Of a stretch of DNA of 64,000 nt, positions 18,594-21,950 are shown one piece after another. Location of the stretch: NCBI GenBank assembly GCA_021775875.1, contig JAJFHA010000022.1, forward strand, positions 1-64,000, read 5' to 3'. The notes under the pieces were generated by a model. That model ran no database searches and was not told where the DNA came from. It saw only the letters and a program-made list of their open reading frames with translations. Each line of letters starts with the position of its first letter. The first letter of the stretch is position 1. This DNA comes from Hyphomicrobiales bacterium. Lineage in GTDB: Bacteria > Pseudomonadota > Alphaproteobacteria > Rhizobiales > NORP267. Both the position numbers and the translations under genes were made by a program.

Positions 18594-19556
18594 GTGACTG
18601 AAACACACAGCAAATTGATCATCATCGGTTCGGGCCCGGCGGGCTATACCGCAGCAATTTACGCCGCCCGCGCCATGCTGGAGCCAACATTGATTGCCGG
18701 CATACAGCCGGGTGGGCAATTGACCATCACCACAGATGTGGAGAATTACCCGGGCTTTGCCGATGTCATCCAGGGCCCATGGCTGATGGAGCAAATGCAG
18801 GCGCAGGCTGAGCATGTGGGCACTAACATTGTCCAGGACCATCTTGTTGAAGCGCATCTGGATGAGCGCCCGTTCCGACTGGTTGGCGATGGTGGCAATA
18901 TTTATACCTGCGACACGCTTGTTATCTGTACCGGCGCCCAGGCGCGCTGGCTGGGTCTTGAAAGCGAAACCAAGTTCCAAGGTTTCGGCGTTTCGGCTTG
19001 CGCCACCTGCGACGGGTTTTTCTACCGCGACAAAGAAGTTCTGGTTGTCGGCGGTGGCAATACGGCCGTTGAAGAGGCGCTATTCCTAACCAATTTTGCG
19101 TCCAAGGTTACCCTTGTTCACCGCCGCGACGAATTGCGCTCTGAGAAAATCCTCCAGCACCGGCTTCTCAATCACCCCAAGATCGAAGTTATCTGGGACA
19201 GCGTTCTGGAAGAAGCCTTGGGCGACGAAAACCCGCTCGGTATTACCGGAGCCCGGATAAAGAATGTCAAAACCGGTAAGACTACCGATCTCGATGTCCA
19301 TGGAATTTTCATCGCGATCGGCCATGCACCATCGGTAGAGCTTTTCTCCTCGCAGCTAGATATGACGCCATCCGGCTATATCTGGACGGCGCCTGATTCA
19401 GCTGCCACCTCGATCCCAGGTGTCTTTGCCGCAGGCGACGTAACCGACGAGATATACCGCCAGGCCGTGACCGCCGCCGGTATGGGCTGCATGGCCGCTC
19501 TTCAGGCTGAAAAATATATTGCCGGGATCGACATGGGTAGCATCGCTGCCGAATAA
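18594..19556 (+). CDS. trxB: Thioredoxin-disulfide reductase
   Basis: A 320-residue flavoprotein. The FAD-binding motif GSGPAGYTAAIYAAR is at the N-terminus, the redox-active CATC is at residues 136-139, and the NADPH motif GGGNTAVEEALFL and C-terminal FAD motif GVFAAGDVTDEIYRQAVTAAG follow. It reduces thioredoxin with NADPH. The start is GTG at 18594, with GAGG a few bases upstream. lsrB follows 15 bp downstream, so both are likely one transcript. Confidence 0.97.
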   Translation: MTETHSKLIIIGSGPAGYTAAIYAARAMLEPTLIAGIQPGGQLTITTDVENYPGFADVIQGPWLMEQMQAQAEHVGTNIVQDHLVEAHLDERPFRLVGDGGNIYTCDTLVICTGAQARWLGLESETKFQGFGVSACATCDGFFYRDKEVLVVGGGNTAVEEALFLTNFASKVTLVHRRDELRSEKILQHRLLNHPKIEVIWDSVLEEALGDENPLGITGARIKNVKTGKTTDLDVHGIFIAIGHAPSVELFSSQLDMTPSGYIWTAPDSAATSIPGVFAAGDVTDEIYRQAVTAAGMGCMAALQAEKYIAGIDMGSIAAE

Positions 19557-19571
19557 CAAAAAGACCGCGCT

Positions 19572-20462
19572 ATGGATTGGGACAAGATCAAGGTTTTTCA
19601 CGCCGCCGCGTTGGCTGGCAGCTTCACAGCCGCGGGCAGCGAACTTGATTTGAGCCAGTCTGCCGTCAGCAGACAGGTCAGTAGCCTTGAAGAAGATCTG
19701 AAGGTATCACTGTTTCATCGCCATGCCCGAGGATTATTGTTGACGGAACAAGGCGAGCGATTACTGAAAACCGCGCACGAGGTTTTTGTCAAATTACAGG
19801 CCGCCGAAGCCCGCCTCACCGACGCGAAAGAAAAGCCGTCTGGCGATTTGCGGGTGACAACCACGGTCGGGCTTGGAACCAGTTGGCTCACCCCCCGGAT
19901 CAAGGAATTCATCGAGCTCTACCCGGATATTAATCTGAAATTGATGCTCCACGACAATCAGCTTGATATCGGAATGCGCCAGGCCGATGTGGCAATCTGG
20001 CTCAGGGCGCCAACCCAGCCTGATCTGATCCAGCGGAAAATGTTCACCGTACATTTTCATATCTATGCTTCCCCTGATTATTTGAAGACTTACGGGCAGC
20101 CCAAAGATGTTGAAGAACTGAATGATCACAAGATCATTCAGTTTGATCACCCCGATCCAAATTACCTTGGCGAAGTCAATTGGCTATCATCTGTCGGGCG
20201 TAGTTCCGACAACCCACGCCCACCGGTATTGAGCATGAATAATATCCATGGCCTGCGCCGGGCCGCCGAACAGGGCATTGGCCTCGCCATTTTGCCGGAT
20301 TATCTGATCTCGCCGGAATCGCCATTGGTGCGGCTGATGCAAGATGCAGAAATTCCCACTTTTGATACCTATCTGGCGTACCCAGAGGAATTGCGTGATT
20401 CGAAACGGGTGAATGTTTTCCGCGATTTTTTGGTCAGTCAGTCACGAAACTGGAAATTCTGA
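19572..20462 (+). CDS. lsrB: LysR-type regulator of the LsrB/VtlR group
   Basis: A 296-residue LysR regulator with an N-terminal winged helix (FTAAGSELDLSQSAVSRQVS) and a substrate-binding effector domain. The opening MDWDKIKVFHAAALAGSF, the HRHARGLLLTEQGERLL segment and SGDLRVTTTVGLGTSWL closely follow what I remember of Sinorhizobium LsrB / Brucella VtlR. In those genomes it also sits beside trxB and next to the AbcR small RNAs. The same arrangement here (trxB, lsrB, structured RNA at 20652) supports the assignment. It likely controls redox, envelope or transport genes and perhaps the small RNA. Confidence 0.85.
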   Translation: MDWDKIKVFHAAALAGSFTAAGSELDLSQSAVSRQVSSLEEDLKVSLFHRHARGLLLTEQGERLLKTAHEVFVKLQAAEARLTDAKEKPSGDLRVTTTVGLGTSWLTPRIKEFIELYPDINLKLMLHDNQLDIGMRQADVAIWLRAPTQPDLIQRKMFTVHFHIYASPDYLKTYGQPKDVEELNDHKIIQFDHPDPNYLGEVNWLSSVGRSSDNPRPPVLSMNNIHGLRRAAEQGIGLAILPDYLISPESPLVRLMQDAEIPTFDTYLAYPEELRDSKRVNVFRDFLVSQSRNWKF

Positions 20463-20574
20463 CCTCGTACTTTCCCATTACGGAAACTTCAAATATTTGA
20501 TTTTGCGGGTGTTTTTGCCTTCGACCAAAATCAGATCGTAAAACTGCGTGTAAAAACTTGACAATACAACTCTA

Positions 20575-20596
20575 AGTCATGCAGTTTTGCATGACT
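20575..20596. promoter_or_regulatory. Perfect 9-bp inverted repeat upstream of the small RNA
   Basis: AGTCATGCA and TGCATGACT are separated by GTTT. The dyad lies between the lsrB stop and the proposed small-RNA promoter. It may be an operator, possibly for LsrB itself; binding is inferred only. Confidence 0.5.
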
Positions 20597-20651
20597 GCCA
20601 TGCGGCGATCGTGGTTGTTCAAAGCCGTTGTGCAGCGCATATAAAGGTCAA

Positions 20652-20802
20652 CTGGAGTTCGTAGAAGGGTATGGTTCCTCCCTCCCTCTATTCCCTTCTT
20701 CGGCGATTTGGACAAAGTTAGTAACCGAGGTTCAATCGCGACGCGCTTCCCCTCAAGCGCGTTTCTAGTAACTGCCGGGCTCCTAAGGGAGCCCGGCTTT
20801 TT
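20652..20802 (+). ncRNA. AbcR-like small RNA with anti-Shine-Dalgarno loops
   Basis: Three hairpins follow each other. Hairpin 1 (20663-20699) has stem AGAAGGG/CCCTTCT and a loop containing CCTCCCTCCCTC. Hairpin 2 (20741-20762) has stem ACGCGCTT/AAGCGCGT and loop CCCCTC. Hairpin 3 is a strong terminator. C-rich loops that can pair with Shine-Dalgarno sequences are typical of trans-acting alphaproteobacterial sRNAs. The position right after trxB-lsrB matches the AbcR (alpha-r15) locus as I recall it. A TATAAA at 20640-20645 is a plausible -10. No open frame of note is present. The exact 5' end is a guess. Confidence 0.7.
20774..20802 (+). terminator. Rho-independent terminator of the small RNA
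   Basis: A 10-bp perfect stem (GCCGGGCTCC/GGAGCCCGGC) with a TAAG loop is followed by TTTTT. It points along the plus strand, so it ends the small RNA and not the converging msrP gene. Confidence 0.9.
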
Positions 20803-20836
20803 ATTATCTCACTGCAAGAATTCAGAGCTTGTGTGC

Positions 20837-21811
20837 TTATGCGTAGAGGCGCTCACCTTCCATATTTTTATATAGATCAGCAACCTGCTCGCCATAGCCG
20901 TTATAAATCACGGTCGGGATCGTCCGGTTTTCTCCAAGCACTCGTTCGTTCGCCTGGCTCCAGCGGGGATGCGGCACCTCAGGATTTACGTTTGCCCAAA
21001 ACCCGTATTCGCTGGCATTCAATTGTTCCCAGAAGCTGATCGGCCGCTCGCTGGTGAATGTGATCCGGACAATCGACTTGATCGATTTGAAGCCGTATTT
21101 CCACGGCACCGCGAGCCGCAATGGCGCACCAAATTGCTTGGCGGCTGGCTGGCCATACGCGCCGGTAACCATGAAGGCCAGTTCATTGGTGGCTTCCTCA
21201 ATCGTCAACCCTTCCGTATAAGGCCAGGGATACCAGAACTGGCGCTGGCCTGATGCCACACTGCTATCCTGGAAAGTTTGCATGACCACATATTTGGTGC
21301 TTGATAATGGACGCGCATAATCCACCAGCCGGGCCAACGGAAAACCTGACCAGGGAATGGTCATCGACCAAGCTTCAACGCAGCGATGGCGGTAAAGCCG
21401 TTCTTCAACCCCCATGGCCCGGATCAGGGTATCGATATCAACTTCGCGCTCTTCTTCAACTTCACCGTCAAGGGTAACGGTCCAGGGCCTGGTCTGAAGC
21501 GCCTGGGCACGGTCTGAAATTTCCTTGTGAGAGCCGAATTCATAGAAATTGTTGTACCGGCTGTTGATATTCTCCGGCGTGAGGGCCCGTTCGATTTTGT
21601 AAAATTCGTTACGGTCAGCCGGGTAAAGGTCTGCCGTTGGATCCGCGTCGCCCTCTGCTCTGGCCGCGTTTACCAACCCACCGGTTCCAATTGCGCTGGC
21701 TGCAGCAATTGCCCCAGCACCCATCATAAATGAGCGCCTGTTCAAAAAAACCTTTTCGTCGGTCGCCATCCGCTCCGGTATTTCCCAACCGCGCAGCCGC
21801 TTGATCAACAT
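20837..21811 (-). CDS. msrP: Periplasmic methionine sulfoxide reductase catalytic subunit MsrP
   Basis: A 324-residue molybdopterin protein of the YedY/MsrP family. A twin-arginine signal (LNRRSFMMGAGAIAAASAIG, RR at 25-26) is followed by the sulfite-oxidase-type fold with the Mo-ligating Cys C144 in RHRCVEAWSM. The family repairs oxidised methionines in periplasmic proteins with electrons from MsrQ. No msrQ-like membrane gene is adjacent. The start at 21811 has GGAG upstream; the frame is open further upstream without similarity. Confidence 0.94.
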   Translation of the reverse strand: MLIKRLRGWEIPERMATDEKVFLNRRSFMMGAGAIAAASAIGTGGLVNAARAEGDADPTADLYPADRNEFYKIERALTPENINSRYNNFYEFGSHKEISDRAQALQTRPWTVTLDGEVEEEREVDIDTLIRAMGVEERLYRHRCVEAWSMTIPWSGFPLARLVDYARPLSSTKYVVMQTFQDSSVASGQRQFWYPWPYTEGLTIEEATNELAFMVTGAYGQPAAKQFGAPLRLAVPWKYGFKSIKSIVRITFTSERPISFWEQLNASEYGFWANVNPEVPHPRWSQANERVLGENRTIPTVIYNGYGEQVADLYKNMEGERLYA

Positions 21812-21950
21812 ATCTAACTCCAGTAACCGGGAATACCGGTCGGTTGCAGCCTGCCCAAGAGCCACAGCCGTTAGATAGGACGCAAACGGACAAGGTGCAA
21901 ATCACTGTTCCGCGAGCCCAGCTTTATTTATTCCGTATTAGCGTATGCGC

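Follow-up and report, generated by a model that had tools for sequence, protein, structure and literature searches.

The window analysed here, a stretch of 64,000 nucleotides, comes from an organism placed in the Hyphomicrobiales/Rhizobiales, the same order as the known carriers of AbcR RNAs. Near its first third lie the genes trxB and lsrB, followed by a 374-nt intergenic region that separates lsrB from msrP and holds a dyad, a promoter, a candidate small RNA and a terminator. The features of the locus are as follows.

18594–19556, plus strand: trxB, thioredoxin-disulfide reductase (NCBIfam TIGR01292, 395 bits over the cut-off).
19572–20462, plus strand: lsrB/vtlR, LysR-type regulator (HTH_1 and LysR_substrate), the proposed activator of the small RNA.
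20575–20583 and 20588–20596, no strand assigned: perfect dyad AGTCATGCA / TGCATGACT with 9-bp arms, the first part of the LsrB box (from sequence and position weight matrix (PWM) score).
20589–20601, plus strand: LsrB/VtlR box GCATGACTGCCAT, of the form GCAT-N3-TG-N3-T (from the published consensus and position).
20615–20643, plus strand: sigma-70-like promoter, with −35 TTGTTC at 20615–20620, a 17-nt spacer and −10 CATATA at 20638–20643 (from sequence).
20650–20802, plus strand: candidate AbcR-type small RNA of about 153 nt, with an inferred transcription start site (from fold z-scores, conservation in congeners and covariance model R2, described below).
20660–20702, plus strand: hairpin 1, exposing the anti-Shine–Dalgarno stretch aSD1, TTCCTCCCTCCCTCT, at 20675–20689; loop invariant in the genus, one compensatory pair.
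20703–20739, plus strand: hairpin 2, between the two C-rich hairpins and additional to the three-hairpin fold of AbcR; within the genus, one pair differs in both partners and three pairs differ in a single partner.
20740–20763, plus strand: hairpin 3, exposing the aSD2 or M2-like stretch CTTCCCCTC at 20746–20754; loop invariant in the genus, two compensatory pairs.
20774–20802, plus strand: intrinsic terminator GCCGGGCTCC-TAAG-GGAGCCCGGC followed by TTTTT, with its stem-loop at 20774–20797 (from a terminator search; stem invariant in the genus).
20837–21865, minus strand: msrP, convergent neighbour lying outside the RNA (NCBIfam NF003767).

These features confirm, with small corrections, the preliminary description of the locus, which had reported a dyad, a −10 element and three hairpins 3' of trxB–lsrB: the dyad, the −10 and the coordinates stand, whereas the predicted fold has four hairpins. 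Nearly all of the order's 150 genomes have an lsrB orthologue; in the class, 106 of 190 genomes have one at E ≤ 1e-60. The gene msrP, for a periplasmic methionine-sulfoxide reductase, recurs beside the small RNA, in convergent orientation at 64 of 216 lsrB-downstream loci.

The perfect dyad at 20575 and the plausible −10 were both present as proposed, and the dyad matches, at its published position, the experimentally derived VtlR/LsrB consensus GCAT-N3-TG-N3-T, which spans −61 to −49 of S. meliloti abcR1 (PMC8844928, PMC7486931). Relative to the predicted start site (about 20650), GCATGACTGCCAT sits at exactly −61 to −49. We seeded a PWM with the published consensus and refined it on lsrB-downstream regions (GCcATGCg.....cGCATagCTG.cATGC), small-protein promoters being absent from the training set. 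Of 152 lsrB-downstream loci, 88 scored above 9, as against no shuffle out of 152; the window scored 16.0. A long-form box with zero mismatches occurs at only two sites in the organism's own 3.1-Mb genome, the window's box being one. Across the order and class, the distance from GCAT to the −10 was 48–50 nt in 65 of the 100 loci with a detectable −10, despite a widely varying distance between lsrB and the unit (interquartile range 48–232 nt in loci of the order).

The other exact box in the genome lies 96 nt upstream of an open reading frame of 73 amino acids on contig C2 (G000:C2:235514-235852; L270, L285). We call this reading frame DUF1127-like by eye and by its promoter; searches for a Pfam or NCBIfam family returned none. 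The box is found within 400 nt upstream of 14 of its 18 homologues in the order, the genome's own copy included, and downstream of 0 of 18. Known VtlR targets in Agrobacterium and Brucella comprise the AbcR RNA and small DUF1127-type proteins, and with a box at both the small RNA and the 73-amino-acid reading frame, both arms of the VtlR regulon appear to be conserved in this genome.

The box also bears on the possibility that the RNA, perhaps of the same function, is not switched by LsrB at a site of its own. The RNA does follow lsrB directly and in the same orientation, the search found no terminator in the intervening sequence, and SorX, whose relatives occupy the same locus in other orders, is derived from a 3' untranslated region (PMC9438474). 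We nevertheless consider this quite unlikely, as the spacing of box and −10 is kept at many loci while the distance to lsrB varies, the box recurs upstream of the unrelated small-protein gene, and a box–RNA unit in Tistrella has no adjacent lsrB.

The predicted fold of the RNA itself, with four hairpins and one closing helix, is far more stable than expected, with z-scores of −4.5 and −5.4 and no shuffled sequence equally stable. Both C-rich loops noted in the preliminary description, TTCCTCCCTCCCTCT and CTTCCCCTC, were found as quoted, and are predicted to be largely accessible: the mean unpaired probability is 0.87 for UUCCUCCCUCCCUCU in hairpin 1 and 0.69 for CUUCCCCUC in the second C-rich loop. 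The strong terminator was likewise recovered, at 20774–20797 plus a U run, as the sole terminator-like site found by the search. Two congeners share 93% and 84% identity with the RNA region and keep every element of the unit beside lsrB, in the same gene order: dyad, promoter, stems, loops and terminator. The two C-rich loops and the stem of the terminator do not vary among the three genus members. The preliminary description had named a lack of such conservation in relatives with this gene order as grounds for refutation, and the outcome favours its idea. Four pairs, spread over three helices, show compensatory changes, where shuffles lead one to expect 1.6 (12 of 500 reach this number), a comparison that involves three sequences only. 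Beyond the genus, the layout is shared by two further genera of the family, whose stems are unrelated but whose loops are again C-rich, and TTCCCCTC of hairpin 3 is also invariant across 20 aligned AbcR sequences of the order. The one remaining genus of the family that was sampled, with a reduced genome (G004; 1.4 Mb, 99% complete), had no detectable lsrB and was not matched by the RNA model either, which fits joint loss.

These comparisons make it very improbable that the element lacks any action in trans and is only a terminator region or the gene for a short peptide. A terminator is present, and a 46-amino-acid open reading frame with a TTG start spans 20628–20768. However, the RNA is 153, 152 and 156 nt long in the three congeners, and differences of 1–4 nt break the frame and argue against a conserved one, while loops and pairing are kept; there is no ATG-started reading frame of at least 20 amino acids within the RNA on this strand; and the C-rich loops recur in relatives from the family on different stems.

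This layout beside lsrB is found again across the family, the order and the class. An LsrB box, a C-rich run and a terminator, arranged in this succession, follow lsrB at 68 of 131 loci of the order and at 50 of 85 loci from other alphaproteobacterial orders, and this combination was found in 0 of 216 Markov-shuffled lsrB-downstream controls. Several families of the order have apparent tandem copies of the lsrB-linked RNA (L111, L081, L117, L084, L030, L066 and L070), in which two to three C-rich repeats are spaced by a few hundred nucleotides.

We then compared the RNA with AbcR, represented in Rfam by ar15 (RF02345). The preliminary description had proposed a search with this covariance model, and the window gave no match: none at the gathering score, and none at E ≤ 10 in the region 20300–21100. 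The organism's own genome had none either. The RNA is thus not a formal member of RF02345. Other near-matches in the window (Atu_C8, isrJ, Alfamo_CPB, SorX, snR67 and Histone3) were far below gathering and were set aside as chance. The suggested correspondence with the AbcR locus fared better. Matches to ar15 with E < 0.001 occur in 18 of 150 genomes of the order, and in 14 of these 18 a match, mostly below the curated cut-off, lies no further than 1 kb past the end of lsrB and in its orientation, the same location as in the window. A covariance model built from these matches (R1) hit 46 lsrB loci, all on the lsrB strand, and reached two other genera of the window's family at the right position (G005, E = 1e-4; G003, E = 9e-4). 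A second-round model (R2), with the window's genus left out of training, weakly reached the window RNA at 20660–20805 (23.9 bits; E = 2.5e-4 for a search space of 207 kb, window plus controls, in which the next match has E = 0.12) and also matched both congeners.

Over the whole genome the window RNA ranked second in the R2 search; the best match was the terminator-bearing 3' end of a gene for a membrane protein. Taken apart from synteny, the covariance evidence is therefore weak, and our claim of homology to AbcR rests on synteny, box and motif together rather than on the model. Further R2 matches in genomes of the family were considered as second copies; the ones inspected (L306–L308, L311 and L312) look like the 3' ends of genes followed by terminators, or like coding sequence, and were rejected. 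The genome carries one DNA copy of the small RNA. RNAalifold on a MAFFT alignment of diverse AbcR sequences returned 11 pairs only, and we therefore claim no covariation across families. The Brucella AbcR motifs are M1, CUCCCA in hairpin 1, and M2, GUUCCC in a linker (PMC5461406); the two exposed CU-rich motifs here read CUCCCU and CUUCCC, the second in a closed hairpin loop. The AbcR-like interpretation is supported by the conserved layout beside lsrB and by the match of the dyad to the VtlR/LsrB consensus: the window RNA stands formally outside RF02345, but most likely works like AbcR and derives from the same ancestral RNA. The lineage to which AbcR would be extended is a new family, not a new order.

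In other orders, the RNAs behind lsrB take a different form. Many carry a near-invariant 27-nt core, GTCTCCCAGACGTGAAGCCTCCCTGTT, found with at most 3 mismatches in 117 of 385 genomes of the class (a reversed control pattern had zero matches) and with at most 4 mismatches at 42 of 85 lsrB-downstream loci of other orders. These RNAs match the Rfam model of SorX (down to E = 1e-7) and partly that of suhB/MmgR just below threshold, and several were also picked up by R2 (best 40.5 bits). Among loci L183–L247 and L284, all from other orders, are SorX-like RNAs that have this core and an LsrB box behind lsrB and are missed at Rfam gathering thresholds. L284 is on plasmid pTM3 of Tistrella mobilis (NC_017958.1, about 125.6–125.9 kb), where a box, a SorX-like RNA scoring 40.6 bits with the suhB model (cut-off 41) and a convergent msrP stand together with lsrB not adjacent, indicating that the box–RNA unit can occur without the regulator gene alongside.

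Given these resemblances, the window RNA might belong to another CU-rich lineage, of the suhB/MmgR or SorX type, that merely lies beside lsrB and has targets other than mainly ABC transporters. Such an origin would be in keeping with the placement of ar15 and suhB in one Rfam clan (CL00108), with the matches of other-order RNAs to SorX and suhB and with an alignment of SorX in the window, the last at chance level. We regard it as unlikely, because the lsrB-linked RNAs of the order connect stepwise to ar15 and neither model matches the loci of the window's genus or family at E 0.05. In the window, SorX (RF02784) gave only this alignment of 13.2 bits (E = 3.7), and at E 0.05 it gave none at L001, L003, L008 and L009; suhB/MmgR (RF00519) gave none in the window at gathering, none in 20300–21100 at E ≤ 10 and none in the family loci at E 0.05.

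One locus of the order has an ar15 match above the cut-off together with a weak SorX match (E = 0.011). AbcR in the Hyphomicrobiales and the SorX-like RNAs of other orders could be divergent descendants of one RNA transcribed from an LsrB box behind trxB–lsrB, forming an ancient circuit of the whole class, an idea for and against which we see the odds as evenly balanced. If so, the coupling of a redox-sensing LysR regulator to an anti-Shine–Dalgarno RNA that throttles nutrient import would be ancient, and the window would hold its four-hairpin variant. The literature searched, which did not extend to the key AbcR/VtlR papers, contained no report that, throughout the class, AbcR and SorX-like RNAs occupy the same place at lsrB and have an LsrB box in common, and nothing relevant to the 27-nt core.

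To look at targets, we compared twelve genes from the same genome, ten with Peripla_BP_6 and two with SBP_bac_8, with 37 control genes from one 64-kb window, choosing start codons in both sets by the strength of 16S (Shine–Dalgarno) pairing. GGGAG occurs in the Shine–Dalgarno region of 8 of the 12 ABC binding-protein genes and of 5 of the 37 others (Fisher p = 9e-4). Predicted pairing to the loops of the small RNA was also stronger in the binding-protein genes (p = 0.002), with 16S pairing slightly stronger as well (p = 0.04). The best candidates are G000:C18:75189 (GAGAGAGGGAGUGG) and G000:C3:98800 (UUAGGGAGGACC). A strict pattern, GAGGGAGG-N3-11-ATG, gave one site and was dropped as too strict. 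A validated target of S. meliloti AbcR1 is livK, and Peripla_BP_6 is the family of LivK. The enrichment does no more than suggest ABC binding-protein mRNAs as targets.

Our results favour, at a probability of roughly 85%, an AbcR-type anti-Shine–Dalgarno RNA that is activated by LsrB and silences transporter mRNAs. LsrB, probably redox-sensing as in S. meliloti, would bind the dyad and box at about −75 to −47 and recruit polymerase, activating the sigma-70 promoter. A trans-acting RNA of about 150 nt would be made, ending at the strong intrinsic terminator, and its CU-rich loops UCCUCCCUCCCUC and UUCCCCUC would occlude GGGAG ribosome-binding sites, mainly on mRNAs of ABC binding proteins, as the enrichment supports. 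Translation of ABC substrate-binding proteins would then fall, possibly with the involvement of Hfq.

Descriptions of AbcR RNAs come from the Rhizobiaceae and the Brucellaceae and link these RNAs to host association. The regulator–box–RNA unit is present here in the genome of an uncultured member of the Hyphomicrobiales, and recurs in many alphaproteobacterial families missed by the Rfam AbcR model. If our reading is right, the core job of LsrB/VtlR would be an old and general one, in which an RNA couples nutrient import to the redox state, with its roles in virulence and symbiosis being later uses, and SorX and AbcR, so far studied separately, could be treated as a single comparative system.

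Among known systems, RNAs of the NfeR1/SmelA075 type resemble the window RNA in having several hairpins and repeated anti-Shine–Dalgarno motifs similar to CCUCCUCCC (PMC8844928, PMC3927594), but their locus and regulation differ and we found no Rfam or sequence link. The ar15 clan-mate suhB/MmgR comes near threshold at loci of the same type in other orders and is unmatched in the window and the family. SorX of Rhodobacter sphaeroides represses the ABC transporter gene potA in oxidative stress, acting on its mRNA, and in other orders SorX-like RNAs with an LsrB box follow lsrB; SorX is about 75 nt long and derived from a 3' untranslated region, and the window sequence resembles it at chance level only. 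The closest counterparts are AbcR1 and AbcR2 of Sinorhizobium, Agrobacterium and Brucella. They have 114–121 nt and three hairpins, against about 153 nt and four here, two or more copies against one, an M2 in a single-stranded linker rather than a closed loop, and CUCCCA in place of CUCCCU, and the window RNA has no ar15 match. They share with it the order trxB–lsrB/vtlR–small RNA, a box at −61 to −49, a sigma-70 promoter, a CU-rich anti-Shine–Dalgarno loop in hairpin 1, a second UUCCCC motif, a terminator and predicted targets among ABC binding proteins.
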